A stretch of DNA of 33,156 bases from a virus. A program made the translations under genes and the position numbers. Of the stretch, positions 1-18,900 are shown in pieces (within the stretch, counting starts at the first letter, position 1; every line of letters begins with the position of its first letter). Location: the IMG/VR virus record IMGVR_UViG_3300017763_000089, positions 1 through 33,156 of that record. One strand, written 5' to 3'. A model generated the notes under the pieces. The model did not search any database and had not been told where the DNA came from. It saw nothing but the letters and a program-made list of their open reading frames with translations.

Positions 1-1052
1 GCATATACAGGTGAAGGAGCAAACAAGTCTATTGTAAAAGCTTGGTTGAAACTAGAGTTATTCATGTAGAATATAGACGTGTCCGCATCTTGCCATATCT
101 CTAATCTTGTAGCTATCCAACCATTACCAACTAAGTCGTGTAATATTAAATCATAAGTACACTGATCAATATCGTCCATTGTGTTTGCTAAAGGATCGTA
201 GTTGTACATTGTGCTATCTATACAACCATATATTTTTAAAGTAGCACAGCTACTATCATCTACAGTGGCTAATGGATCATACTCTACATAATCATCGTCC
301 ATACAGCCATATACCGGAGGAGGTGGCACACATGTATCAGAGATAAACACGTGAGCGGAGTCTTGCCCGAAGCTAGGGTCAATCCCATAGACTACGGTAT
401 CGCCGCATTGCATTACATAATACGAGCCATCTTGTCCTCCCCATAATGTACCTTCTAATCCATCGCCATATAAATCATATATAGTAAAAGTTAACTCTCC
501 AGGAGGTAAACAAGCAAACTGAAACTGCGGCTCGTAATCTGGCACATTGTTATAAGGTCCACCTGAAAACACTATGTTACCTAGACTGTCGGTTATTGTC
601 CAGCTAGTTTCTTCAGGGTATTGGTCTAAGTTTATATTTACTAATGTTGGTACACATGGTCCTGGTGGCGGAGGAGGTGGTGGTGGTAAACAACTTGGCA
701 CTTGTCTATTTGAATACACACCTGACTGAAAGTTAGGATTAGGATAATCCACTATAGTGTCACCACAAACAGTAACATAATAACTACCGTTCATACCATC
801 ACCGTAAGTATCTCTAATTAAAAATGTAATATCAGCTATACTATCATTTATGTAACAAGTGTCAGTGTAAGTAGTATTTGGTGATGTATAATAACCAGCT
901 GGTACCATAGCTATAGTATCACCATTTAAACTGTCAGCAAATAAAGTCCAATATGTTTCCGTAGGATATTGATCTGTAGTTACATGTATTACACACTCTT
1001 TCTGTGCAAATGTTATAATAGGTAATAATAGCAGTAATAATAATTTTTTCAT
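1..1052 (-). CDS. Secreted repeat protein with proline-rich linkers, C-terminus cut by window edge
   Basis: I translated this frame by hand; it is open to base 1, so 350 codons are visible and the C-terminus lies outside. The N-terminus (MKK followed by seven leucines, then PIITFAQ) is a clear Sec signal peptide, so the product is exported. Two tandem homologous units follow, about residues 27-112 and 143-232; each starts DQYPxET, has a core YGDG(M/L)xG and ends near YYVxxCGDT. They are separated by a run of eight prolines at 123-130. A degenerate third copy begins near HDLVGNGW (305-312). Between them are two short YGC(M/I)D...YDPLA repeats (248-269, 275-298), a motif common in secreted proteins of marine Bacteroidota. 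The start ATG (1050-1052) overlaps the TGA of the upstream gene as ATGA, which suggests translational coupling. A surface or extracellular adhesive role is inference; the function is unknown. Confidence 0.85.
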   Translation of the reverse strand, partial: MKKLLLLLLLPIITFAQKECVIHVTTDQYPTETYWTLFADSLNGDTIAMVPAGYYTSPNTTYTDTCYINDSIADITFLIRDTYGDGMNGSYYVTVCGDTIVDYPNPNFQSGVYSNRQVPSCLPPPPPPPPGPCVPTLVNINLDQYPEETSWTITDSLGNIVFSGGPYNNVPDYEPQFQFACLPPGELTFTIYDLYGDGLEGTLWGGQDGSYYVMQCGDTVVYGIDPSFGQDSAHVFISDTCVPPPPVYGCMDDDYVEYDPLATVDDSSCATLKIYGCIDSTMYNYDPLANTMDDIDQCTYDLILHDLVGNGWIATRLEIWQDADTSIFYMNNSSFNQAFTIDLFAPSPVY

Positions 1053-1597
1053 TCTTTTATCTTAATTGTTATATCATGAGGTGCATACTCGTTTCCTCCA
1101 AAATATGGGTATAAGTAATATCTTTTAATTAAACCCCAGTTTCCTTCCGGTCTTCTTCTAACCATTGTTGTATCACCATCTATAGTTATAATGTAGTAAA
1201 ACGTTTTTATATCTATAGTAGCGTTGTAAGCAACGTTTGGTTCTATAGTTCTTATTGTAGCAGCCGTGTGCCTACCTTCTTCATGCCTTAGCCAGCAAAG
1301 CTCTAATTCGTTATTTAAGTATCTCCAACCTAATCTTATAGAGTATTTTTGATGTCTAACACCAAAGTCACTAAAGCCGTAAATCTTATTTACGTCATGT
1401 TGATTCTCTGGTATCTCGCTAGTATAAATAGCAGACTCATCTAGCATGAAGTCAAAGTTTATTCTTGAGTTTGTAGGGTGGTTAAAGTAATTGCCCGAGC
1501 TATGAGCACCCTCGGGTATTACAAAAGTTCTAAAACCAAGATCGTCACGTTCTTTACTACAAGAGATAAATAATAATACTAATAATAGCTTGCGCAA
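1049..1597 (-). CDS. Putative surface-exposed lipoprotein, TTG start
   Basis: This is a 182-residue protein with a short signal peptide ending LLFISC; Cys13 would be the lipidated residue. The lipobox is weak at -3 (Phe), but the residues after the cysteine, S-K-E-R-D-D, resemble the charged lipoprotein export signal described in Bacteroidota that sends lipoproteins to the cell surface. The body is beta-rich with many aromatics and has no domain I recognise. The only start that keeps the signal peptide is TTG at 1595-1597, directly after the TAA of the preceding gene (1598-1600). The next in-frame methionine is far inside the protein. Its TGA overlaps the ATG of the next gene. The phage-encoded lipoprotein could act at the host surface, for example in exclusion, but that is inference. 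Confidence 0.75.
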   Translation of the reverse strand: MRKLLLVLLFISCSKERDDLGFRTFVIPEGAHSSGNYFNHPTNSRINFDFMLDESAIYTSEIPENQHDVNKIYGFSDFGVRHQKYSIRLGWRYLNNELELCWLRHEEGRHTAATIRTIEPNVAYNATIDIKTFYYIITIDGDTTMVRRRPEGNWGLIKRYYLYPYFGGNEYAPHDITIKIKE

Positions 1598-2218
1598 TTA
1601 TTTTCTAAACTGGTGAGCTTGCCAATTGCCAACACCACCTTTTACTTTGTTCTTTATTTTTGAATCAATAACAGTGTTAGTCTTTGGTCCATCTTTATGT
1701 ACCTTCTTGTTATGACCTTGTGGAGGAGTTGGTGGTTTAGTAGGATCCTTTTTATATTCTCCCATTTCATATCTTGATTTAGCAAGTTCAAAAGATTGAT
1801 CGTCACTGCCTTTATTAGCTCTTGGTCCAAACCCACCTTTTTTCTCCATTATGTTTTTCTCTCCTGTACTTTTGTTAGGAGATTTTTTAGCGTAAGGATC
1901 TGTAGTAGTATCTAAGTCTGATACTTGACCAGTATGTAGTTTACCGTCTTTAGCTTTAAACATTTTCTTGCCTTTAACAATAACATATTTACCACCAGAC
2001 TTTTTAACTTCGGCAGATTTATTTAGTCTAGCTATTTCTTGCGCTAGAGTTTCTTGCACTTTGTTTGGACTACCTTCTTTCTTACAGCTACCAGGCGCAC
2101 AAGGCTTAGTTCCAGGCACTCTTTTATAACCCTTCCAGCAATTACAATCTTTTTTCTTTGCTGGTGATGTAAATTTATACGAGCTCTTGCAACCCGCTCT
2201 TTTTGTTGGTGTTTTCAT
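1598..2218 (-). CDS. Basic hypothetical protein with an N-terminal cysteine cluster
   Basis: This is a 206-residue, strongly lysine-rich protein with no signal peptide or membrane segment. The first 45 residues hold five cysteines (10, 25, 27, 40, 45) in a patch reading CNCWKGYKRVPGTKPCAPGSC; the spacing could bind a metal ion or form disulfides. The remainder is low in hydrophobic residues and rich in Lys, Gly, Pro and Asn (for example PTKPPTPPQGHNKK near 160-172), so it is probably largely disordered. It lies between a secreted thioredoxin-fold gene (3-base gap) and a lipoprotein gene (no gap), which puts it in the same transcript. I do not recognise the family. Nucleic-acid binding would fit the charge, but there is no direct evidence. 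Confidence 0.7.
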   Translation of the reverse strand: MKTPTKRAGCKSSYKFTSPAKKKDCNCWKGYKRVPGTKPCAPGSCKKEGSPNKVQETLAQEIARLNKSAEVKKSGGKYVIVKGKKMFKAKDGKLHTGQVSDLDTTTDPYAKKSPNKSTGEKNIMEKKGGFGPRANKGSDDQSFELAKSRYEMGEYKKDPTKPPTPPQGHNKKVHKDGPKTNTVIDSKIKNKVKGGVGNWQAHQFRK

Positions 2219-2221
2219 ATT

Positions 2222-2548
2222 TTAAAAATCGCTCATTAATAATTCGTCTATTGCAGCTTGCATATCTTTTCTAGTTGCAACCATACTAAAAGATATATCA
2301 GCTTGAAATCGTTTTACCTCCTCGCCATCTTTAAATATAACGACAGTAGGAACTATAACTATTTGATGCTTCTCTTGTAACTTAGGTGATTTAGCTATGT
2401 CAACATAAACTATATCACAGTCAGTTAGTTTGCCAATGTACTTAACCTTGTTTGGATCGTTCCATTCAGCGTTAAAATGTGTTACAACTACTTGTGAGCT
2501 AGCGTTTAAACTAAATACCGCTAGAAGTATTAGTAATATATTTTTCAT
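2222..2548 (-). CDS. Secreted thioredoxin-fold protein lacking the CXXC active site
   Basis: This 108-residue protein has a Sec signal peptide (MKNILLILLAVFSLNASSQ) followed by a compact thioredoxin-like domain. The order of elements fits the fold: strand VVVTHFNAEW, the active-site position, a helix, strand DIVYVDI, the cis-proline segment IVPTVVIFKDGEE (Pro67) and a C-terminal helix. Where thioredoxins have W-C-G-P-C this protein has W29-N30-D31-P32-N33, so both redox cysteines are asparagine. The only remaining cysteine, Cys44, lies outside the motif. The protein is therefore probably periplasmic and not a classical disulfide reductase. A binding or chaperone-like role is possible. It sits in the run of small envelope-targeted genes downstream of the virion genes. 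Confidence 0.78.
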   Translation of the reverse strand: MKNILLILLAVFSLNASSQVVVTHFNAEWNDPNKVKYIGKLTDCDIVYVDIAKSPKLQEKHQIVIVPTVVIFKDGEEVKRFQADISFSMVATRKDMQAAIDELLMSDF

Positions 2549-2553
2549 TTAAT

Positions 2554-2829
2554 TTATCTTAATTTATCAATTTTATCTTCCATTCTTCTAATATCAATCT
2601 TCAACTCTTCTACAGCTTTTTCTGTATTAGAAATTGATTGTCGAACGTTGATGTCTTTCATGTTAAACTCCATACGAGTAATGTCTGGTTTTGGTAGTTC
2701 TTTTGCCTCTGCAATATCTGCTTGTAAAGCAAACCACATACCTATTATAGTTGCCATGGCAAAGCCAACAGCTATCATTGTTTTTATGCTTATATTAAAA
2801 CCTGTGTTTTCGTTTAATTCTTTTGCCAT
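2554..2829 (-). CDS. Small one-pass membrane protein with coiled coil (holin/spanin candidate)
   Basis: This 91-residue protein has one hydrophobic segment at about residues 17-35 (TMIAVGFAMATIIGMWFAL). A short linker with ELPKPDITRMEF follows, then a heptad-like charged helix from about 60 to 91 (AVEELKIDIRRMEDKIDKLR). The style is one I associate with a small protein common in marine phage genomes, but I know of no assigned function for it. Its size, single transmembrane helix and position after the structural genes would suit a holin or an inner-membrane spanin component; this is inference. Its ATG overlaps the TAA of the upstream gene by one base (TAATG), so translation is probably coupled. 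Confidence 0.75.
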   Translation of the reverse strand: MAKELNENTGFNISIKTMIAVGFAMATIIGMWFALQADIAEAKELPKPDITRMEFNMKDINVRQSISNTEKAVEELKIDIRRMEDKIDKLR

Positions 2830-3881
2830 TATCTTATTATGTAATTTATTCCTAACTTAAAGTCGTACCACTCTCTATTCCAGTACTTGTTGTATTTTCC
2901 TTCTGTAAAAATACCTATTCTATTAGTTATCTTTGTACCAAATATTATACCACCAGAATAATCTAACCACTGACCATTGTTAAATGCATGGTAAGAAAAC
3001 TCACCATCTTGATCTAAATGGTAAGGCATTAGGTTTGCCCAAGTGTGTGTCCAAAATGTTTTAGTGTAGTAGTAATAATCAAAACCAACAACTATAGAGT
3101 GTTGTATCATTAAGTCTAACTCGTCACGTTTTCTTTGTGTATAATCTGATAATACTTTAGGTATTACCACTTCTTCCCAAACCTCTTTACTTGTTGCAAC
3201 GAGCTCTCCGTCAGGAGAAAAATACTCACTAGCAGCTACGTTTACATTATAACCCTCTTGTAGTGCTAGGTAAGTGTAATGTATATTGCCATTGCTGAGC
3301 ATCCACTCTGCCAAAGGATCATATCCATACGGCTCAGATAACCTTTGTGCGAGTCCAGCATTAAAGGACAATTTGTCATTAACTTTATACCTGTATCTTT
3401 CCGATGTTTCAAAATATTTAATATCTGCAAAACCATCTTCTAAGTATTCACCTTTTAGTATATACTTATTGTTTACAAATCTTATAAAATGATGTTGATC
3501 TAAATACTCATTACCCTGCTGTCTAGTATAATCAACTTCAAACAAAAACTCTAGTCCTTTTACTTTACCTATATTAGCACCATCAGACCAAGAGTTTTCA
3601 GTACCATCATAAAAAGTTTGTGCTTTGTTTTCGTAACCAAACCTAGCTATTTTACGAACACCAAAAGCTAAGTTGTAATCAAAAGGTGTTTTTATTGTTG
3701 CTGTTTCCAAACCATTGTTAACAGAAAAAGTTTCTACATCTGATATAGACGTACCACCACTTGCAGCGCCGTAAAACGTAGCAAATTTAAAATATTTTTT
3801 TAAGTCTACTTGACTGCAGCATTTTTTAGGCGCAGCGCAAGCCGTTAATATCATTAACGATATAATCAGTAGTTTCTTCAT
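2829..3881 (-). CDS. Lipoprotein with outer-membrane beta-barrel-like body
   Basis: This 350-residue protein has a canonical lipoprotein signal: MKK, a hydrophobic core and the lipobox L12-T13-A14-C15. Two further cysteines follow at 21-22. The body is full of alternating aromatic/polar strands (for example around GFDYYYYTKTFW and GGIIFGTKITNRIG) and ends in a strand-like FKLGINYIIR, as expected for outer-membrane barrels. Tyr, Phe and Trp are abundant and there are no transmembrane helices. It follows the giant virion gene after a 30-base gap and begins the envelope-directed cassette. I infer a host outer-membrane destination. Whether it blocks superinfection, aids release or alters permeability cannot be told from sequence. 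A porin-like fold is likely but not proven. Confidence 0.75.
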   Translation of the reverse strand: MKKLLIISLMILTACAAPKKCCSQVDLKKYFKFATFYGAASGGTSISDVETFSVNNGLETATIKTPFDYNLAFGVRKIARFGYENKAQTFYDGTENSWSDGANIGKVKGLEFLFEVDYTRQQGNEYLDQHHFIRFVNNKYILKGEYLEDGFADIKYFETSERYRYKVNDKLSFNAGLAQRLSEPYGYDPLAEWMLSNGNIHYTYLALQEGYNVNVAASEYFSPDGELVATSKEVWEEVVIPKVLSDYTQRKRDELDLMIQHSIVVGFDYYYYTKTFWTHTWANLMPYHLDQDGEFSYHAFNNGQWLDYSGGIIFGTKITNRIGIFTEGKYNKYWNREWYDFKLGINYIIR

Positions 3882-3911: not shown

Positions 3912-6900
3912 TTACTGGTGAGCATAGCATTTTCCAGACTTATTTTCAGTTCTGTTTTTACACCTAGGACCTTTACCTTTTCTAGTCTTAGCAGAACACT
4001 GTACTTCTCTAGCTTCTTGTTCTTTTCTTAACCTTTCTTTTTCTTTTCTTTTAGCTTCTTTTTTAGCTTCCTTCTCAGCCTCTTTCTTTTCTTGTATTTC
4101 AACTTTAGCTTGTTCAACAGCTTTGTTTTTAACACCTATATCCCACTGGTTCCAACCAAGTGATAAAGCTATTCTTTGCCAAGTTTCATTATCAGCATCA
4201 CTAGCACTTTTTAAGTTTTGAATTTTTTGATAAACTCTATCTGTAGGTACGTTTGTTAAAGCTGATATACCTTGAGAAACACTAGACCACATTGGATTGT
4301 CAAAATCCAATTTATCCATATGATCTATTTCTTTTCTTTTGTATTTATAAGTTTGTAATCCAGTTCTAACTTTTCTTACTTTACTTCCAATAGGTGGAGA
4401 TACATTTAACATTTCTATAATTATAGCTGACTCGGAAAAATTAAAACCTTTTTTATCTTCTTGTATAAACCTCATTAACATGTTCTTAAGAGTTGCAACA
4501 ATAGCGCCAGCAACACCAGTACCACGTAAGAACGAGTCAACCATACCGTTAGTAAGTCTAAGTGTTTTGTTCTTTTTATCTTGAGCTAATTTTTCCTCAT
4601 CTTCTTCGTCATCAAACATAAACTTAAACATAGCTGTTTGCAAAGCACCAAATATTAAATTCTGTGCAGCTCCATAGTATATTATTTTAGATATGTTTGT
4701 TTTAGCATCGCCTCTTCCGTTTTTAAGATCTAGTATAGCTTTTTTAGTTAACCTAGCATACTGCATCGGTGTGTTTTGAAAAGCAAGTATTAATCTACCA
4801 AGTGGTGAAGCTTGTTGTGACGAGATCATATCAGGTCTAGATGACTGCTGTGACTCTTCAGTTATTTTTTGGAAATCAGTAAAAGCTTTAGCTTCAGCAT
4901 CTGCTTTTGACATACCTTGTTTCATATATGTTTTAACCCTATTTCTATACATAGGAGCTCCACCCGCTGCAATTGCAAAACTATCCGCCATTTGTGTAGG
5001 TAAAAAACCTAAGTCTAATAGTTTTTGTAACACAGCACCAGCTGGATTACTTGATGTAGCAGCTACCTGTGCTAATTCACTCTCACTAACAGATCTTTGG
5101 TTACCAGATCTTCTTTGCTTTAACATGTCAGAGTTAAATATATAAGCAAAATCTTTCCAAAACTGTGGTTGATTAGCAAAAGCCGCGGCTGCTTTAGCAA
5201 CGTTATTATCATTCCAGTTTATATAGTTTACTGTTGATAATGTTTGTAGCACTGCAGATCTACCGTTAAAGAACATGATAGCACCAACAGAGTTGTTTAC
5301 CCAGTTAGCAAATCTATTGGTTAATTTATTTTTACCAAAAGATCTGTTACTACCATTTTCCATACGCCACAATATATCTTCCATAGCTTCTCTCCAGTTG
5401 GTACCTAAAGAAGCTTCAAGCTTATTCATTAATGGACCATTTAGTCTACCACCTTCCCACTCACCAAACATAGCCTCTCTGTTTTGTATAAACTCTGCCA
5501 ACGCTTGTTTTCTACCTTGACCTTGAGTCATTCCATATAGGTCTCTAGCTATTGTACTAGTTAGCCAACCACCTTCTGGGTCTATATAACTAGGTGACTT
5601 AGTAACCTTAGCCAAACCTTCTGCGTACTGCATTAACATAGAATCTCCTTGCACAGCTTTTAACATTAGTTTTTTATCAGCTTTAGATAAACCAGGTATT
5701 TCAACACCAGCCTTATCCCACAAGTAAACTCTAACAGCATTATCATATGTAAACAAACTATCACCAATTTTTTTATTTAACTTCTTTTTTGCTTTTGGCA
5801 TAGCTTTATTTAGTGCAGCAAAATCAGTAGATAAGTTTTGTGCCATCATATTCATCTGCTCAATACCTCTTGAGAAAGGATCAAGCAAGTTGTCTTTCAT
5901 AAACTTCATGTCAGCATCACCTTGCTTACCTTTACCTAATAATGGGTATAACAAACCTTTAAAATCTTCAGCACCTGGAGCTATGTAAAATTTCCATTTA
6001 CCTTTTGCTTTACCAGCTAACTGTGCTTTTGCCTGTGAATATTCTTTGTACTCAGCAACACCAAGAGTTCTAGCTATCATTGAATTTAAACTAGCGCCCA
6101 TGTCATTACTCTTTAGCGTAGCTTGCCTTACTTTAGACTTGACATCAAATTGATCTAACATGTTTTTAACAGCTTGTACGTTTTTAAGTGCATCATCCGC
6201 AAAGTAAAAGTCATTATAACCTTCAGCTGCTTTATCAGCAACCCATAGAGCTTTAGCTTCAGCTGTAGAGTTACCAAGACCAGTTATATTCTCGATAGGT
6301 AAATTTAAACCATTGTCTTTTAAAAATTTATGTATAGCTTTTTGAGCAGCAGCTGGTCTAGCTGTTAATATAAATATATCATTAGTACCAAACTTGTCAG
6401 CAAGTTTTAAAGCTTTGTTAAACAGTGGTGCTATCTTACCTTTAACAACTTTATTAAACTCTGAGAAATCAAACTCATAACCTAAGTCAGCTAAGTTTTC
6501 ATATTCAGCCGCATACTGCTCAGGCGTTAATGTTCCAACTCCACCATCTGGCTTTGTGTATTTTACTAAAGACTTGCTTGTAGCTAATGTATCATCAAAA
6601 TCTAATACGCTAATACCTTTTGGTTCTGTGTTTAAATATCTATTAGCAGCGGCTTGACCCATATTCTCTGAGCTTTTTAGCGCTTCACGAGGTTTGAAAG
6701 TTTCAATACCAAGCTCTCTATTAGCTATGTTAATATCAGCGCGTTCACCTGATATGTGGTATATGTTTGCTAGCATTTCTTTCTTTTCCGCAGTAGTAAG
6801 ATCTGTTGTTTTATCTATAGCAAGCGTTATTCTTTTGTGACCTTCCTTGCTATTTTTACCAAGCTCAATATCTAATATTTCGTCCATTAAAAATTTAGGA

Positions 6901-9900
6901 CCAAAAAACTGCGTGTGGTTTTCTACTATCTCATTAAATCTAGCTTCAGTAAGAGTGTTTGTGGATATTGCAAGAGTTAACTCTGCCATAGTGTCTGAAT
7001 TGGCACCTAAATGTTCTCCTTTTACAGTTAGATCTTTATATGTTTTTTGTTGAGCAGCGTACTCACTATCAGTTTTCTTTCTGTTTATAGCCATTCTACT
7101 CTCGTAGTAGTCATACTCTGATAACTTTTTCAACCCATCAACGTCACCTTCTTTTGGCATTTTAAACTTACTGTTGTCTATGAAGTTACCATTCATAAAA
7201 TACTCTACTTTACTAGAACCTCTAAACCCTTTTGCAGCGCTAGTCTGTAGCTGGAATATAGTCACTAAATTTTCAGGTGATAATTTCCCACTTTGATAAG
7301 CTTCGTTTAATTTAAACACAATATTTTTCATGCCAAGAATATTAGCTCTATTAGCTGCGTTCAGCTTAGGTCTAATAGTTTCTAGGTGAGCTAAAGCTTC
7401 TTGAGTTGTATTTTTCTCATGTAATATAGGTGAATACATAGTTACTAGCTTACCATTACCTTTGTTCATAAACATCATGTCACTTACATAATCAAGATTT
7501 TCATTTACAAGTCCATTTTTAATATCTTGAGACTTATCATAGTAAGGGGCTTTTATACCGGTCTTTTTACCAAAAGTATCTCTTTTGTCAAGTGCCGCAT
7601 CAAGCATTCTGTTGTGAAAACCTAAAGTATCTAAACCTCCCATTGCTTTCATTAATGAAGCGTCTAGTGGGAAAGCTTTATTAAACTCAATTAACCCTTC
7701 AACATACCTATCAGCATTTTCTTTTTTAATTGTTCTTTTGCCTTCAATCTTTCCTGATAGCTGGTGAGCACCATTTCGTAAAGCTTCCTTTATTGCGTAT
7801 GGAGAATTATTATTACCAGTAACACGCTGTATATAACCTATGTTGTCTTTAGTTATACCTTTTTTCTTCAACTCATTTAAAACGTGACCAACCACATCTT
7901 CAGATCCTTCAATCATTAGCATTGCTTCTGTAGCTTGTTTACTATCAGCTCCATATCGTAAAGCAACACCAACCACTCTGTTTATAGCAACATCATCAAC
8001 TCCTTGCATAAATGATGCAGCGCTAACATTTTTACCTTCGTTAGATTTTAACACCATACCTCTTTCTACTTGATCTACAATTTTAGAAGTTATACTGTCA
8101 GCAATTTCACCGTGTAGTAGCTCTTGTCTAGACTTAAACATCTGGGCTATAGGTCCATCGTTTTGCATTTCGTTTCTAAACATCTCTAAGCCTATCTCCT
8201 GTGACATTGCTTGAGTAAGAGTGTTTAAACCACCTCTTCTAAGCTCAGTCATTGTTGTACCGTTAAAAAACTTTTTAATAAGATCGACAGAGGTTATATC
8301 TGTCATAGCTTTAGGGTTACGTCTGATTTTTTGCTTACCATCAGTCATGCCTTTGTAAGGACCAACTTCAGTTGATCTATAAAAATCTACTTGACCTGGT
8401 TTTGTACCTTTAGTTCTACCAACATGATCTGTTGTCCACACTTTAGTACCATCTTCTTGTATAACTAGCTTCTGAACAGCTTTAGGCATATTCTTTGCTA
8501 ACCAAGTAGTTGGCATATGTTTAAGTATAGATGCTTTGTTTTTAGGATCTTTCAACCACATCTCTACTTCTTGAGGCGTTTTACCCATTGCAGCTTCTAT
8601 AGTTTGCTGTATAGGATTTTTTTCTTTGTAAAACTCTTTTTTAAGTTTAGCTACTAATGGACTAACCACGGCATTTTTCCCACGTTCAGCATCTACAGCT
8701 GGTAGGATTGATCCTAAGTTAAGTTTAACGTGATCTAAGACAACTTCTGTTTCAGCTGGTGTTAACTGTAAGTTGTCAACAAATGGAGTTCCCTCTTCAA
8801 CTACATTATTGTTTTCGTCAAACTCAACGTCATCTTCTGTAAATACATTATTAGCTTGGTCGATGTCTGTAGTAAACGCCTGGGTAACACCTAGTTTTTT
8901 AGCTAAGCTATTTGCTCTTAAGTTAAGTCTACTACTTAAAAATTTATCTAAGTTTTGATCAGATGGTCTATATTCCTTTGCTATTAAAACACCCGCATCA
9001 TTTAAAAGAGTTGTAACGTAATCAGCTCTTGATAATATTTTTTTATTATCTCTAGGTATAGGATCATAAAGTCTTTTTGTTATAGATTCAACTATACCTC
9101 CAACTTGAAAGTTAAAAGCACTTAACTGCTGCTCTCCTTCAACCATAGGTTTTCCGTTAAAATCAGTTTTTAACATTGTGTCAACAAACCCAGCCATTTC
9201 AGACTTAGGAGTCTTGCTACCTTTATACTGTCTATCTAGTATACCTTGTAAATCACTTGACTTTCTAACTAAGTTACCACTATTATCTTCTACTCTTTTT
9301 CTGTTTGCCGAATCTATTCTTTTCTTAGTTAACCTACCCATTTTACCACTATCAAAGCCTTTCATGTGGTCAGCTAAGTATGCTGCAGCGTTTTGTGGTG
9401 AGTTTATATCGTAATCACTATTAAATATACTCATGAAGCCAGCTTTGTTACTATACAGTTTTTTCTTGTAAGGACCATTTTGATCTCTTTGTATAGCGTC
9501 TTGTATGTAGTTACCGTATTCAGCATGTACCATTATATCTTGCTCGTTCCAAGGTTTCATTGGGTCAAACTTAGTATACTCGGCATTACCTATAATACGT
9601 GATATAGCTTCAGAGTGTACAGGGCCAGCATTTTCAGAGGCCCAGTTAGCTAGGTTTGTAGAGTAGTTGATAAGCTCTGAGTCATTAAAAGCTAAATTAT
9701 CAACAGCATGTTTTATCTCATGTGACAATACAGTTCCTTGTGTAAGCTTACCCTCAGCAAGATTTTTAGCTGCTGCCGCTTGATCTGTAACTATATATTT
9801 GTTACCAACTATCATACCAAAAGTTTCTCCTGATTTTAATTCATTTATTAAATCATTAGCACTTTCACCTTTTCTAAGCTCTCCTTTTCTTTCCATATCT

Positions 9901-12900
9901 CTAAGCTCTTGCTCAAAGTTACCGTCGACAGCTTCAACTACTTTTAAGCTTTCTAATCTTTTATCAGATAAGAAATCACTAGCATTAACGTTTTCACTTT
10001 TAAACCTAGAAACTCCTTCAGCTTTAAAACCACCAAATAGTTTACCTAGCCTTTCATATTCTTTATCATATCTTGCCTCTTGATCCGCTTGTCTTTTCTT
10101 TTGTTTGTATTTTTTCTTAGGACCTAAGCTAGCTTCAACCATACCAACTAAACCTGGGTCAGCTTTTGCCTCAGTTATTATTTGGTTTTTTAAATCACCC
10201 TTAACAACTCTATGTACTTCAACTGCTTTTTGTCTGTCAGTCATGTCTTTATAAGCAGGATTGTTTTTTAACAAATCTTTATGAACAGCCTCACCTCTTG
10301 TCCCCCAAACTTTATGACCATTTTTATAATCGATCTTACCCATTATCTTTTCCTTCTGATCACGAGCTGTTTTTAATCTATTGTCAAACTCTTTCTTATC
10401 TCTACCTTCTAAACTGTTAGAATGTTCTTGTAGTTTATTTTCTATTATAACTTGAGAGTCACCAGGTATAACACCAGCGTCATTATATATATTGTCTAGC
10501 ACAATACCATTTCTAAGTAAGTCTCTAGTACCATCACCACCTAGCAACATGCCACCAACTTCCATATCGTTTTGTAGAACAACAGATTTTTTATACTCCT
10601 CTTGTATACCAGTTCTTAACTGCTCTTTCATTATTTCACCATCTGGTGTGTTTGGTAGAGTAGCTATATCCATTTTGTACTTATCTATAATGGCTTTGCT
10701 TTTATTAAAAGCATCTCTCTGCTCTTTAGTCTGTATTCTATTCATTATAGCTGAAGAAGCAATACCAGGACCATTCATTCCACCACCGACAATAAGTGAA
10801 CTAGCCACAACATCGTCCCAACCTTCAAAATCAAAATCTCTACCTAGTATTAAACTTTCTGAAGCAGCATCACCAAAGTGAATAGATAATTCTTCAGCGA
10901 TCTCACCACCGGTTCTTTTCGCAAACTCAAGACCAGAGCTAGCCCAGTATCTAGCATTTTTCTGTGTTATAGCGTTTAATATATCATCACCAGGTCCTTT
11001 TATAAAACCTTTTACAAGTCTATTAGCATTAGGTATTGTACCAGCAACCATTGTAATAACACCTTCAATAGCACCACTAACTGTTGCTTGTGCTAGTATC
11101 TCATCATCACTCATTTTTCCAATAGCAACTGTCTCTTCTAAATTAGCTTTTTGATTTATATAGTCTTCATAAGACATAAAGTCTTTATTTTCTTCTAGCT
11201 CTTTTAACTTTTCTTCTGCACCAATAGATGCATTTCTTTGTATTGTTAAATCAGCAAACTTAGTAGTACCAGAATTTAAACCAAACATTGTTGATGTTAA
11301 CGCACTAGCAACTACAGTGCTACCAGTTAAAGCAGATCCAGCGCCAGCGGTACCGACAGCAAGCAGAACATTAAAACCTTGTTGTGCACCTGTTTGTTTA
11401 GTATATTTCCATTTTTGACCAGTAGCTACAGCTGTGCTATAATCTAACGCTACTTCATATTTTTCAGCACCAGCCTGTCTACTTTTATGTCTATTTATAG
11501 CTTCATCACTACCAAATAATATAGGGAATGTATCTCCAAAACTAGCAACACTATCTTCAAACATGTCTAGCATTTGTCTAGTTGTGTTACTATCTCTGTT
11601 AGCTATTTCTCTTATTTTTTTAGTATCTTGATCTTGGTTCTGTTTCATCCAAAGATTAAGTCTATCGCTTTCAGTAGTTACCTTTTGCTTGTAGGATTGC
11701 TTGTGTAATTGCTCTTGATCTCTTACTTGGTTTAAATACACCTGGTACTCTGCAGCTTTAGGCCCAATAGCTTTGTAAATATTATTACCGTTACTATCTT
11801 GGCTTGTTTCAACTCTAACACCATCTTCAGCCGCCTTGTGAGCTATTTCTTTTGCAAACCTAAAAGTATTCTCCATACTTTTCTTGTATGTCTCTCCAGC
11901 TATTTTAGTATTTTCTTCTATAGTATTATATTGCTCTTCTAGCTGTTTAGCTTCTTGTTGTGCCTCAACTCTACCACCGTACTTAACTAGGACAGCATTA
12001 TTGTCTTCTGATAACCTTTTAGAATATTCTGCGTTCCAAACAGCTTCGTTAGCCACGTCGTTAACTCGTTGCATTGATCTTTGAAAAACATCATTGTTTT
12101 TAGCTTCATCAAATATTGCTTGACCCTCTGGGCTTAATGAGTTTCTAACTTCATCAGAAAACATTTGGTCAAATCTTTTTGATTGCCAGTTTTCTTCAGG
12201 GTTGTATTCTGTATCACGTATAGGGTTGTTAACAAAAGCTTGTACTTTTTTAAAATCTTCTTCAGACATACCTTGAAAAGCTACTTGCATGTCTCGGCCA
12301 TACTGCGGAGTTTTAGTGTAAGCGTCTTTAGAGGCGCTCATGTCTATTTTTCTACCTAAATCAGTCTGTGCTCTATTTCTAACGTTAACTTGCTCTTTTA
12401 AATAGTCTTGAGCTTTTTTCATTAACTTACTTTTATCTTCAACAGTGAAATTTTCTCTGTTGTTAAAAAAGTCTTCAATACCAGTAACACCAACGTTACC
12501 AGTTAAGTCTTCGCTAGAAATCCATTTGCCACTAGAATCATAACTACCTCTTTGTACTTTGTAACCCTTACCTAAAGACTTTTCAACAGTAGGAACTATT
12601 CTAATACCTATTTCTTTATAACCCTCGTTTGCTTGTTGAATATCTTTATCATCAAATTGTCTATTGCCATCTCCAAAAGCACCAAACTGTTGAAATGAAT
12701 CAGCGCCAACCAATAAGTTAAAGCCAGGTCCATCTTTTATAAAGGCTTTTTCTAATTCGTCAGCGCGTTCTTTTATTACTTCTAGTTTTGCTATCGATAC
12801 AGCACTACCATCTAAATCTATATTATCTCTAAAACCAGGTCCAGATATATTAATTCTATTACCAAATGATCCTGTAGTCTGTACAGTTATACCAGAGTTT

Positions 12901-13238
12901 GGATATGCTTTATTAAAACTAGCGATAAAATCATCTTCATTTTTCTTAGCCCAAGTTTTAGGTGCTTTGTTATCCCAGTCATTATCAACTGTTAAAGCCG
13001 CTAGTCTAGTTTTTTCTTCTTGTTTAGATTTTTCTACTTCTAAGTTTTGTTGTTTCTTTTTATTATTTACCGCTTCAATTTCCTCAGGATTACTAGTCTG
13101 CTCAGCACTGTATTCACCCTGCTTGTTAGTAACATACAATTGTACAGCACTATTAATTTTATCTAAAGGCACGTTAGCACTCTTCATTTTTTCAATAGCA
13201 CCAAGTATTTCTTGCCTGTGGTTATCTCTTAAATTCAT
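3912..13238 (-). CDS. Giant internal virion/ejection protein with HExxH, HAD and C-terminal Cys3-His modules
   Basis: This single uninterrupted frame of 3108 residues is the largest gene here. The N-terminal third is charged and helical. Hydrophobic glycine/alanine-rich stretches lie at about 619-660, near 720, near 810 and near 2860. An HEIKH motif (1173-1177, context TVLSHEIKHAVDNL) matches the HExxH zinc-peptidase signature. A HAD phosphatase-like domain at about 2205-2390 has motif I DFDDT (2213-2217), motif II Thr2292 in LTAR and motif IV D2348-D2349 in FADD. Near 2793-2830 is a segment (around SSQQASPLGRLILAFQNTP) that I associate with very large phage polyvalent proteins. The last 60 residues are a Lys/Glu helix and then C3081, C3093, C3104, H3107. 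Following two smaller internal-virion-like genes, it probably corresponds to the giant ejection protein of podoviruses. The enzyme activities are predictions only. Confidence 0.85.
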   Translation of the reverse strand: MNLRDNHRQEILGAIEKMKSANVPLDKINSAVQLYVTNKQGEYSAEQTSNPEEIEAVNNKKKQQNLEVEKSKQEEKTRLAALTVDNDWDNKAPKTWAKKNEDDFIASFNKAYPNSGITVQTTGSFGNRINISGPGFRDNIDLDGSAVSIAKLEVIKERADELEKAFIKDGPGFNLLVGADSFQQFGAFGDGNRQFDDKDIQQANEGYKEIGIRIVPTVEKSLGKGYKVQRGSYDSSGKWISSEDLTGNVGVTGIEDFFNNRENFTVEDKSKLMKKAQDYLKEQVNVRNRAQTDLGRKIDMSASKDAYTKTPQYGRDMQVAFQGMSEEDFKKVQAFVNNPIRDTEYNPEENWQSKRFDQMFSDEVRNSLSPEGQAIFDEAKNNDVFQRSMQRVNDVANEAVWNAEYSKRLSEDNNAVLVKYGGRVEAQQEAKQLEEQYNTIEENTKIAGETYKKSMENTFRFAKEIAHKAAEDGVRVETSQDSNGNNIYKAIGPKAAEYQVYLNQVRDQEQLHKQSYKQKVTTESDRLNLWMKQNQDQDTKKIREIANRDSNTTRQMLDMFEDSVASFGDTFPILFGSDEAINRHKSRQAGAEKYEVALDYSTAVATGQKWKYTKQTGAQQGFNVLLAVGTAGAGSALTGSTVVASALTSTMFGLNSGTTKFADLTIQRNASIGAEEKLKELEENKDFMSYEDYINQKANLEETVAIGKMSDDEILAQATVSGAIEGVITMVAGTIPNANRLVKGFIKGPGDDILNAITQKNARYWASSGLEFAKRTGGEIAEELSIHFGDAASESLILGRDFDFEGWDDVVASSLIVGGGMNGPGIASSAIMNRIQTKEQRDAFNKSKAIIDKYKMDIATLPNTPDGEIMKEQLRTGIQEEYKKSVVLQNDMEVGGMLLGGDGTRDLLRNGIVLDNIYNDAGVIPGDSQVIIENKLQEHSNSLEGRDKKEFDNRLKTARDQKEKIMGKIDYKNGHKVWGTRGEAVHKDLLKNNPAYKDMTDRQKAVEVHRVVKGDLKNQIITEAKADPGLVGMVEASLGPKKKYKQKKRQADQEARYDKEYERLGKLFGGFKAEGVSRFKSENVNASDFLSDKRLESLKVVEAVDGNFEQELRDMERKGELRKGESANDLINELKSGETFGMIVGNKYIVTDQAAAAKNLAEGKLTQGTVLSHEIKHAVDNLAFNDSELINYSTNLANWASENAGPVHSEAISRIIGNAEYTKFDPMKPWNEQDIMVHAEYGNYIQDAIQRDQNGPYKKKLYSNKAGFMSIFNSDYDINSPQNAAAYLADHMKGFDSGKMGRLTKKRIDSANRKRVEDNSGNLVRKSSDLQGILDRQYKGSKTPKSEMAGFVDTMLKTDFNGKPMVEGEQQLSAFNFQVGGIVESITKRLYDPIPRDNKKILSRADYVTTLLNDAGVLIAKEYRPSDQNLDKFLSSRLNLRANSLAKKLGVTQAFTTDIDQANNVFTEDDVEFDENNNVVEEGTPFVDNLQLTPAETEVVLDHVKLNLGSILPAVDAERGKNAVVSPLVAKLKKEFYKEKNPIQQTIEAAMGKTPQEVEMWLKDPKNKASILKHMPTTWLAKNMPKAVQKLVIQEDGTKVWTTDHVGRTKGTKPGQVDFYRSTEVGPYKGMTDGKQKIRRNPKAMTDITSVDLIKKFFNGTTMTELRRGGLNTLTQAMSQEIGLEMFRNEMQNDGPIAQMFKSRQELLHGEIADSITSKIVDQVERGMVLKSNEGKNVSAASFMQGVDDVAINRVVGVALRYGADSKQATEAMLMIEGSEDVVGHVLNELKKKGITKDNIGYIQRVTGNNNSPYAIKEALRNGAHQLSGKIEGKRTIKKENADRYVEGLIEFNKAFPLDASLMKAMGGLDTLGFHNRMLDAALDKRDTFGKKTGIKAPYYDKSQDIKNGLVNENLDYVSDMMFMNKGNGKLVTMYSPILHEKNTTQEALAHLETIRPKLNAANRANILGMKNIVFKLNEAYQSGKLSPENLVTIFQLQTSAAKGFRGSSKVEYFMNGNFIDNSKFKMPKEGDVDGLKKLSEYDYYESRMAINRKKTDSEYAAQQKTYKDLTVKGEHLGANSDTMAELTLAISTNTLTEARFNEIVENHTQFFGPKFLMDEILDIELGKNSKEGHKRITLAIDKTTDLTTAEKKEMLANIYHISGERADINIANRELGIETFKPREALKSSENMGQAAANRYLNTEPKGISVLDFDDTLATSKSLVKYTKPDGGVGTLTPEQYAAEYENLADLGYEFDFSEFNKVVKGKIAPLFNKALKLADKFGTNDIFILTARPAAAQKAIHKFLKDNGLNLPIENITGLGNSTAEAKALWVADKAAEGYNDFYFADDALKNVQAVKNMLDQFDVKSKVRQATLKSNDMGASLNSMIARTLGVAEYKEYSQAKAQLAGKAKGKWKFYIAPGAEDFKGLLYPLLGKGKQGDADMKFMKDNLLDPFSRGIEQMNMMAQNLSTDFAALNKAMPKAKKKLNKKIGDSLFTYDNAVRVYLWDKAGVEIPGLSKADKKLMLKAVQGDSMLMQYAEGLAKVTKSPSYIDPEGGWLTSTIARDLYGMTQGQGRKQALAEFIQNREAMFGEWEGGRLNGPLMNKLEASLGTNWREAMEDILWRMENGSNRSFGKNKLTNRFANWVNNSVGAIMFFNGRSAVLQTLSTVNYINWNDNNVAKAAAAFANQPQFWKDFAYIFNSDMLKQRRSGNQRSVSESELAQVAATSSNPAGAVLQKLLDLGFLPTQMADSFAIAAGGAPMYRNRVKTYMKQGMSKADAEAKAFTDFQKITEESQQSSRPDMISSQQASPLGRLILAFQNTPMQYARLTKKAILDLKNGRGDAKTNISKIIYYGAAQNLIFGALQTAMFKFMFDDEEDEEKLAQDKKNKTLRLTNGMVDSFLRGTGVAGAIVATLKNMLMRFIQEDKKGFNFSESAIIIEMLNVSPPIGSKVRKVRTGLQTYKYKRKEIDHMDKLDFDNPMWSSVSQGISALTNVPTDRVYQKIQNLKSASDADNETWQRIALSLGWNQWDIGVKNKAVEQAKVEIQEKKEAEKEAKKEAKRKEKERLRKEQEAREVQCSAKTRKGKGPRCKNRTENKSGKCYAHQ

Positions 13239-15608: not shown

Positions 15609-15950
15609 TTATTTACTACTTTCGAATGTATCGGTGGCAACACCAAACAACTCTGCATATACAGTTCCACTGTTTTTCATTTTAACCTCAGCAAAATAAC
15701 CTAGCAAACTACTTAAATTAGCCTTGTTATCTTTAGTAAAAAATATATAAGCATTTGATGGTGGAACAGATGAGTTGCTTGCTATAGTTATAGAAGATCC
15801 TGATATACCAGTTATAGTTCCAATAGCAACTATGTTAGATTGTGTTGCTACAGAAAAACCACCAGAACTAGAAGTTGGTGTATAGTAGGCAAAGTCTCCT
15901 ACTTGACAAGATATATTTAGTGCTTCATTGAATGTTAGTGTTACTGGCAT
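15609..15950 (-). CDS. Small conserved virion-associated protein
   Basis: This 113-residue, beta-rich protein has no signal peptide. It has a hydrophobic glycine-containing core (VAIGTITGISGSSITI) and an ending with FFTKDNKANLSSLLGYF and ELFGVATDTFESSK, a pattern I recall from short proteins in many marine phage structural gene clusters. The gene lies one base after the long stabilisation-type protein, which suggests it is made in step with it and may be a tail or head decoration component. The length, composition and lack of catalytic motifs favour a structural role. The exact position in the virion cannot be read from sequence. Confidence 0.7.
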   Translation of the reverse strand: MPVTLTFNEALNISCQVGDFAYYTPTSSSGGFSVATQSNIVAIGTITGISGSSITIASNSSVPPSNAYIFFTKDNKANLSSLLGYFAEVKMKNSGTVYAELFGVATDTFESSK

Positions 15951-15951
15951 A

Positions 15952-18900
15952 TTATGTTAGTGTTAAAAAGTCAGGTTTTAATGTTATGTTTCCGTTAGGT
16001 ACAGTTGCACTACCTTTTTTACCGTAAGATGTTATAGCTATAGTTCCTGCTACAGTTGCTTGTGTGCCAGCTTCGTTTACTAAAGTTGAAGATTCAGTCC
16101 ATATATAGTTGTAATCAGATTCTGTTTGTAAGACAGAATGTTGAGGCGCTACACCAGTAGTAACTTGACTTAAAGTAACAACCTTAGTAGCAGTGTTTAC
16201 TCCAGCAATAATAGTATTATCAGGTATAAAGCCTTTACCAGATCCATCACTAACTCTCATACCAACTTTTATTCCAGTAACTCTAGTTAAAGAAACAGTG
16301 TTTGCACCACTTGGCGTGTCCAAAGCTAGCTTGTAAAGACCGCCAGCTCCATCAAACATGTCGCCTCCAGCAGCTACAATTTTTGCTAGACCACCAGATT
16401 GACTATTAAAAGTAAGCTCTACGGGATATGTTTTTATATTAACAGACGATAATTGAGTTCCTTCCATAGCGCTAGGTATAGTAGTAGAACCAGTTGTCGT
16501 AACAGTTCCGCCGTTTGAAGTTTCAGTACCACCTGTAACAGTTATAGTTCCAGTTTGTACTACCACATCAAAAGTTGTTTCATTAACAGCGTCAGGTACG
16601 TTTGATTGTAAAGTTAAGTTTGTGCCAGAGCCACTGTTACCAGCTAAAAGTATTATACTGTATGTTCCACCAGCATTTGATTCGTTAGAGTCAATAGGCA
16701 CTGTTATTGTATCTTGGTGTACTGGTGCTGTAGATAAATCTGCAGATGTAACCTCGAAACTACCAACGTGTGTTGAGTTAGAAAAATCCCAAGCATTTGT
16801 ACTGAAGTTATACGATCCAGTTAAAGCATCGTTAGCACTATTATTTTTAGCAACTTTTATTCTATAATGACCAACACTATTTGTTGTTACTGGTATAACT
16901 TGAGATCCACCGGCAAACACTTGGCCTAGATAACCAATAGATGTAACTAATGGGCCAGTAGCAGGTAGAGCAACTGGATTAGTTGTAAATCTAATATCAT
17001 GCAGTAGTGAATCGAAATCTGCTGGATCACTTATACCAGTAGGTGGTGTGTAATATATTTCTATATCAGTAGACTGTATTCTGTTTGTAAGACCAGAAGT
17101 AGTATAGTTATTATTTGTAATAACCCAAGAGTAACTAGAGCTATAAGGTATGTTTGAAGGAAGTGGGTTCCAAATAACCTCTGCACCATTATTAGAGCCA
17201 GATACTGGTTGTAACTCATAACCACTGTCAACAGTTATAGTGTATTTAGCCACTAAACTTGTAGCTCCATCAGCAACAACACCAGTGTGCTTATCTGTTA
17301 AAAAACTAGGATTTGTACTACCAGTGTAACCGTTGTCAGAAGTTCTAGTCATATTAGTTACAGTTCCTCTTGATACTACTATGTGGTCTGGATTGCTAGC
17401 ACCTTCACCAGTTGTTGTTGGCTCATCTACAAAACTAACTCTAAATAAACTAGTTCTGTTAGGTGTGTTTGAAACTATAGGTGGTATCGCCGATCCACTA
17501 TAGTCAACGTCCACGTATATATTTTTATTAGCACTAGGCATTGTAAAAGAATTATAATATATTTGCACATTTACTCTATTACCAGGATCACCAGCTATAC
17601 CAATGTTTGTGAATTCAACTTTAGCAACTTCAGCATCAGCATTCCAACCTGTTGCCGCAGTATAAATATAAGTTGTTGAGTTTCCACTACCAGATGTTGT
17701 AGCTGTACCACCAGGAACAATAAAGTCAGCTGCATCTAAATTAAACCCAGAGTATTGTGTAACGCCTTGCGAGTTTACAACATCATTAGTTATCACTGCA
17801 TATATCTGTCCAGTACCTGAAGCAAGACCTTCTGTCATCAGCACTGTAGGTCCATCTAAAAATGCAAAGTCACTTGAATCAGCTGTTGAATCCCAGTTTG
17901 TACCGCTAGAAGATTGAGATCTAACAGCTACGGTTGTTATGTAATTGTTTGATGTTGTACCACTACTTGACTTTGAATCGTAAACTCCAATACCTTGAAC
18001 TGAAAATTCTTTTTGATCCATGTTTGATAAATTAGAAGCTACACCTTTTACTGTAGCAAACCATTTACCTTCTTTATCTTTGAATTCTATATTTTCAGCT
18101 TCTTGTAAGTCAGTGTTCATTGTGTCTAAATACCAACCTTGCTTAGCATTTAGGTTGTAGTATTCTTTATCTGTGTAGTCAGTACCATTTACTGTTACTG
18201 TTTGAAACTGTGTTATTCTTGATTGTGTACCTTCGTAGTTTAATGCTCCAAAGCTTTTTACTGAACTAGGTTTATCATTAAAAATCAAAGTTATATCAGA
18301 ATAATGTTGTGTACCATAAAAATTATTAGCAACAGAGTTTTCGTGATGCTGCCACATGCTACCATGCTTAAACGTATAATATTCGTTGTTTAAACTAACA
18401 CCAAACTCTAAGCCGTTAAAGTCTTTAAAACTACTCCAACCTTTTGATTTTTCGTTCCAAGTAACAGTTTTTGTAATAGGTCTTAACTGGAACTTATCCA
18501 TTTTAGTACAAGTTGTTAAGTTAAATTCATCTTTCTTATCATCATAACTACCTATTACATAAGCTAGATCTTTTAAGTTATCATTAAAATAATCTTTCAT
18601 ACCTACATCAGATATAACCTGTATTGTTGCGTTTCCTGTTAGTTTTAGTATTTGACTTCTTGCTTGGTCACACCAGTATATAGCATCGGAAGTAACTGTA
18701 ACAGATTCTGGGTTTGTTGATATACCATACTCACCTTGTATTGGTGTTGCTGATCCAAGAACAACAGTTGATGACAGTATATTAGAACTTCCATCAGCGT
18801 TAAATAAAGCGTCTTTGTTTGTTTGTATACTTAATACCTTGTCTTCACACAGAGCTAAAGTGTTCGTGTTTCTAGCTATTATATGTTGTATGCTACCATA

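Follow-up and report, generated by a model that had tools for sequence, protein, structure and literature searches.

Conserved envelope-directed genes of marine phages: a candidate lysis set and a putatively T9SS-secreted surface protein

Gene layout of the window

The window, i.e., the whole 33,156-nt stretch of virus record IMGVR_UViG_3300017763_000089 analyzed here, has all its long genes on the minus strand. They specify TerL, portal, scaffold-like, capsid, and tail proteins, then a giant protein, and finally six consecutive genes, g1 to g6 (Table 1). Relatives of the portal protein belong to phages of Flavobacterium, Cellulophaga, Maribacter, and Tenacibaculum. The gaps between the g1–g6 reading frames run from −4 to +5 nt, which bears out the overlaps and tight spacing noted in a preliminary description of this DNA. 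Export and membrane signals, called by scans for N-terminal hydrophobicity and lipoboxes, occur in five of the six genes, as that description had also claimed, versus one among the remaining 13 genes of the window (hypergeometric p ~0.003, calculated by hand); the one signal-positive gene among the latter encodes a 223-aa protein with a hydrophobic N-terminus.

Table 1. Position and predicted character of the genes discussed, in the window and in its closest relative, L002
Feature	Coordinates	Strand	Length	Signal	Predicted character
giant protein	3912..13238	−	3108 aa		Presumed virion protein directly upstream of g1; co-occurrence anchor
g1	2829..3881	−	350 aa	lipobox (LTAC in window copy)	Predicted exported outer-membrane β-barrel
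g2	2554..2829	−	91 aa	one TM helix	Single-pass inner-membrane protein with predicted periplasmic helical coil; holin/i-spanin candidate
g3	2222..2548	−	108 aa	signal peptide	Predicted exported thioredoxin-fold protein, FNAEWNDPN at active site
g4	1598..2218	−	206 aa	none (no signal peptide or TM helix)	Basic, non-exported accessory protein
g5	1049..1597	−	182 aa, TTG start	lipobox (FISC, then SKERDD)	Accessory lipoprotein
g6	3..1052	−	≥350 aa, runs off window	signal peptide	N-terminal part of a predicted secreted Cys-rich repeat protein
L002 g6	15656-18064				g6 frame in closest relative
L002 M15	18054-18509				M15 endolysin, overlapping g6

The giant protein looks like a multi-domain virion protein, with a polynucleotide-kinase-like stretch at residues 2207–2366 (phrog_415), a motif resembling HExxH (SHEIKH), and a Cys/His C-terminus.

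That g1 and its neighbors directly follow the giant protein gene, on the same strand and with tight spacing, fits a reading in which they encode virion components or a genome-delivery conduit in the particle. However, a barrel fold together with cleavable export signals should take such proteins out of the cytoplasm and away from assembling capsids, so that this reading seems remote.

The preliminary description ended the gene set at base 1 and saw no endolysin, and on both counts it was misled by where the window stops. The g6 gene continues past base 1 (its relatives are 600–1100 aa at full length, and the window copy is the N-terminal part), and the window is cut before an endolysin could appear. 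In L002, whose g6 is 87% identical, the order is g1-g2-g3-g4-g5-g6-M15; because the M15 frame there overlaps g6, the window's own endolysin is expected after g6, ~1.3 kb past the window end. Positions 1–3881 are best explained as the beginning of the envelope/lysis segment that closes the late operon in a podovirus-like phage infecting a marine Flavobacteriales host.

Conservation of the g1-g2-g3 core and its additions

In an unbiased set of 41 contigs, fetched through the giant protein alone and extending past it by 2.5 kb or more, g1 was present in 38, g2 in 39, g3 in 39, and g6 in 30. Two scans with g1 yielded 447 and at least 530 matches, respectively, and one with a divergent g2 at least 505; g1-g2-g3 recurs in several hundred marine viral contigs. 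A divergent clade (clade B, set B) was fetched through g2 alone, on contigs of up to 167 kb; among the best 80 of at least 505 loci, 73 have g1, g2, and g3 together and 78 have g2 and g3, while g6 is absent from all 80 and no sorting tail (see below) was found in clade B either. The order is g1-g2-g3 in 84 contigs of set A and g2-g3-g1 in 11; in set B it is g1-g2-g3 in 58 contigs, plus 10 with a duplicated g2. The synteny check proposed in the preliminary description therefore found consistent co-occurrence of the three genes in a fixed order within two clades, not homologues scattered independently across the contig sets. Median identity to the window copy is ~67% for g1 versus ~49% for the giant protein.

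The preliminary description's six-gene cassette survives as a set of envelope-directed, co-occurring genes, but not as a single unit. There are two layers: a near-universal g1-g2-g3 core, and g6 as an addition in the window's clade, with g4 and g5 optional (relatives in 16 and 28 loci, respectively, by tblastn). Because clade B keeps g1–g3 without g6, the core is independent of g6. The same observation down-weights the idea that g1-g2-g3 help g6 to be exported or anchored, as SprF/PorP-type barrels do with type B cargo of the type IX secretion system (T9SS). Such a link is suggested by six contigs in which g1 comes directly after g6 with a 4-nt overlap, and by MAG contigs L157, L158, and L159, in which g1 immediately follows g6. 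Not only does clade B lack both g6 and a sorting tail, however, but g1 matched no model in NCBIfam, SprF/PorP models included, up to E 0.5, and type A T9SS cargo needs no dedicated barrel. We consider a helper role very unlikely.

The core was found at only five loci in 84,980 species genomes (GTDB), mostly on MAG contigs with the phage arrangement, and g1 in none of 40 relatives and neighbors of a genome rich in sorting tails. This near-absence from host genomes identifies g1–g3 as a phage set. Together with the position of the genes in late operons, it also speaks against their being host-fitness genes (morons) that supply a nutrient pore, a stress protein, or an adhesin keeping the infected cell productive; even though the nearest barrel fold to g1 is that of porins (see below), this seems scarcely probable.

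Elemovirus, the Cellulophaga phages, and Maribacter phage Panino share the head/portal lineage of the window phage, but no g1, g2, or g3 was found in them, and Panino, MW202828, and elemoF have an endolysin or M15 gene upstream of TerL. No meaningful match turned up when isolate-phage sequences were searched with g1, g3, both g6 tails, and two g2 queries. The M15 or endolysin genes upstream of TerL in isolate relatives (L155:13857-14327, L156:13829-14290, L154:9062-9685) have GroEL/GroES genes nearby.

Several local variations were seen. Two g2-g3 pairs flank g1 in L060:12702-15296, and a second g1 copy lies just after g6 in L016:17784-18860. A gene judged by eye to be staphylococcal-nuclease-like is often found directly after g1 (L033:13997-14380, L064:13865-14224, and others). 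Between g3 and g6 lie several families of small basic Cys-/Lys-rich proteins (c7, c14, c17, c20, c21; e.g., L136:11736-12128) with the motifs NNPF..TSCGRRR and FKVYPSAYA, which possibly bind nucleic acid.

The core proteins and their lysis neighborhood

The AlphaFold model of g1 (90 relatives; pLDDT 83.3, pTM 0.76) is a 12-strand barrel whose strands 7 and 8 are separated by a large helical insert. Its top Foldseek matches are outer-membrane barrels, NanC first and PorB also, the match to NanC (2wjr) having E 3e-6 in one search and 5.6e-5 in another. The closest solved barrels are thus the 12-strand NanC/KdgM porins, from which g1 differs in sequence (8–9% identity), in its helical insert, and in overall shape (TM-score 0.30–0.36 on the query); given these low TM-scores, the fold class is supported and no specific family is. 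The C-terminal residue is aromatic in 88 of 110 relatives. A lipobox is present in 70 of the 110, clade B copies carrying ordinary signal peptides. A search of PDB sequences with the g1 profile found no match. PHROG matches of g1 to 'Rz-like spanin' (E 0.07) and 'Cor' (E 0.27) were discarded because they involve the signal peptide only.

By hydrophobicity and alignment, g2 has one transmembrane segment followed by a charged helix of ~55 residues in which E54, K58, D59, R63, and I66 are invariant. A single N-terminal transmembrane segment plus a predicted periplasmic coil is what is expected of an i-spanin; equally, one transmembrane segment with an endolysin downstream falls within the one to four segments near an endolysin that are expected of a holin. 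Matches of g2 to phrog_736 and phrog_1009, families without known function, were weak and were set aside. As to g3, it matches the thioredoxin model PF00085 above the cut-off (E 1.4e-5) and has Asn where the two active-site Cys residues would be; the motif WN..N is found in 92 of 96 relatives and a CxxC anywhere in only four. With both Cys positions replaced by Asn, g3 is presumably redox-dead.

Lysis genes cluster on one side of the core. Counting M15, DUF5675, GTA-holin-like, and c53 genes that start within 5 kb of it, a lysis gene lies downstream of g3 in 25 of 49, 34 of 54, and 10 of 19 contigs of three sets (69 of 122 in total), versus upstream of g2 in 1 of 94, 1 of 56, and 0 of 31 (2 of 181 in total), the three sets overlapping so that some contigs are in more than one. 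The downstream gene is mostly an M15 endolysin, and in clade B the median gap between core and lysis gene is 446 nt. Inspection by eye showed no signal peptide in the M15 protein, which matches PF08291 (E 9e-14). In the minimal form, g1-g2-g3-x76-M15 in L015, no inner-membrane protein other than g2 lies nearby. Just 2 of 36 M15-bearing clade A contigs have either of two holin-like families found, and core loci showed no spanin that could be recognised and, in most cases, no holin. With lysis genes as neighbors and few holins, g2 is a natural candidate for the inner-membrane component of lysis and g1 for the outer-membrane one. A PAP2-family acid phosphatase (PF01569, E 1e-8), which could modify envelope lipids, is encoded downstream in relatives (L136:13098-13640 and 25 more contigs).

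The holin T of phage T4 is small and has one transmembrane segment, a short N-terminus inside, and its C-terminus in the periplasm; its gene is near that for the endolysin. In size, predicted topology, and proximity to an endolysin g2 resembles this protein, although no sequence similarity to single-TM holins was found and the periplasmic part of g2 is a short coil. Likewise, g1–g3 resemble the lambda Rz/Rz1 two-component spanins in being late genes beside an endolysin gene and in combining an inner-membrane coil protein with an outer-membrane partner (Kongari et al. 2018, PMC6139136). Unlike an o-spanin, a small outer-membrane lipoprotein, g1 is a predicted 350-aa barrel, often without a lipobox, and g3 adds a third exported protein, with a thioredoxin fold; beyond the g1 signal-peptide match, no likeness to spanin families was found. 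A 2018 survey puts Bacteroides and Croceibacter phages among the 'spanin-less' (PMC6139136), and in a 2025 survey the spanins found for Bacteroidetes phages are all unimolecular (PMC12596118).

These comparisons suggest that, late in infection, g2 would sit in the inner membrane with its short helical coil in the periplasm, g3 would be exported to the periplasm or remain anchored, and g1 would be placed in the outer membrane as a barrel. Jointly, perhaps as a complex, the three would carry out the membrane step of lysis or virion release, in a spanin- and/or holin-like way, alongside the M15 endolysin. Several observations count against this. The periplasmic part of g2 (~8 nm if helical) is short for bridging the periplasm; g1–g3 identities are often 60–85%, above those usual for lysis genes; not every g1 is a lipoprotein; recognisable holins accompany the core in some contigs; and in ~43% of testable contigs the 5 kb downstream contain no lysis gene that was recognised. 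On balance, we give a role of g1–g3 in lysis or release an even chance.

g6, its sorting tails, and proposed events late in infection

g6 has Cys-rich repeats (GCMD..x..NYDP..ANxDDGSC) and, in 65 of 67 cases, a hydrophobic N-terminus as expected of a Sec signal peptide. Among complete g6 relatives, 15 of 58 match the T9SS type A sorting models TIGR04183/PF18962 (L105 above the cut-off) and 43 of 58, including that of L002, bear a short variant tail with the consensus VTDLLGRP.K..KN.LLFYIY.DGTVERK.IK; the tail of the window copy would lie beyond the window. Sorting tails in g1-bearing contigs are at the C-terminus in 58 of 58 cases, and in contigs with at least 5 kb downstream a tail occurs in 46 of 50, always on g6. 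The preliminary description's barrel-like protein and surface-type secreted protein thus have their counterparts in g1, a predicted barrel, and g6, marked for the surface by its tails. In three g6 relatives there is also a MAM adhesion domain (PF00629, best E 2e-23).

The short tail had no match among Pfam or NCBIfam models in the copies scanned, and a comparison of profiles gave no significant support for its being a worn type A domain (probability 6%). It was found in 58 of 148 Flavobacteriales genomes, nearly all of 0.8–2.0 Mb and with up to 49 such proteins each, and in 2 of 198 genomes drawn Bacteroidota-wide. The host proteins that end in it are, in the copies examined, otherwise unrelated and mostly bear signal peptides. 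Each of eight short-tail genomes tested also has 34–64 canonical type A tails, and SprA was present in all 12 tail-bearing genomes tested, which is consistent with T9SS secretion. The short tail is probably a second T9SS sorting signal. Use of either tail at the same place by one protein family suggests that the two are interchangeable, and the variant tail of L002 g6 points to a small-genome marine Flavobacteriales host.

Judging from these tails, the host T9SS is very probably the destination of g6. Phage proteins with T9SS type A sorting domains have been described in Cryophage (Bellas et al. 2020), where the cargo is three variable genes (endoglucanase, GH39, PA14) of one phage (PMC7468147). 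g6 differs in being one conserved repeat family, present in nearly all testable contigs and mostly bearing the unmodelled short tail. In the window's clade, g6 would be a late product that is exported first through Sec and next through the host T9SS to end up on the surface of the infected cell, where its most likely role is that of a coat restricting re-adsorption or superinfection.

The whole set could instead be a late superinfection-exclusion or anti-readsorption coat, with g1 and g6 altering or masking a receptor, g2 and g3 aiding their placement, and the lysis neighbors incidental. The surface direction of g6, the predicted outer-membrane barrel of g1, and the very high conservation of g1–g3, which suggests contact with a conserved part of the host surface, all fit this. 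Yet it is in clade B, where the core persists without g6, that the endolysin is nearest, and exclusion proteins are, as a rule, early products that vary fast. We therefore regard an exclusion function for the set as a whole as unlikely.

Our preferred reading is that g1–g3 help open the envelope at lysis while g6 forms a T9SS-secreted coat, to which, as a full statement, we assign a probability of roughly 0.45. A bolder version, in which g1-g2-g3 would be a new three-compartment lysis machine of Bacteroidota phages (coil protein in the inner membrane, redox-dead thioredoxin in the periplasm, barrel in the outer membrane) replacing both holin and spanin, coupled in one clade to g6, which the unmodelled tail would bring to the surface via the host T9SS, is rather unlikely. 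Of the functions floated in the preliminary description, surface decoration and an unusual lysis set are both still live, probably for different genes.

How Bacteroidota phages breach the outer membrane is poorly known, and g1–g3 are a conserved, testable candidate for this step; the set suggests that infection may finish with the host cell being opened or coated by a hitherto unrecognised route. The conservation of g6 suggests that phage use of T9SS is widespread, beyond the single literature case found, Cryophage. In addition, the short tail exposes what is probably a second, unmodelled sorting signal on many surface proteins of small-genome marine Flavobacteriales, and so ties uncultured phages to their hosts.
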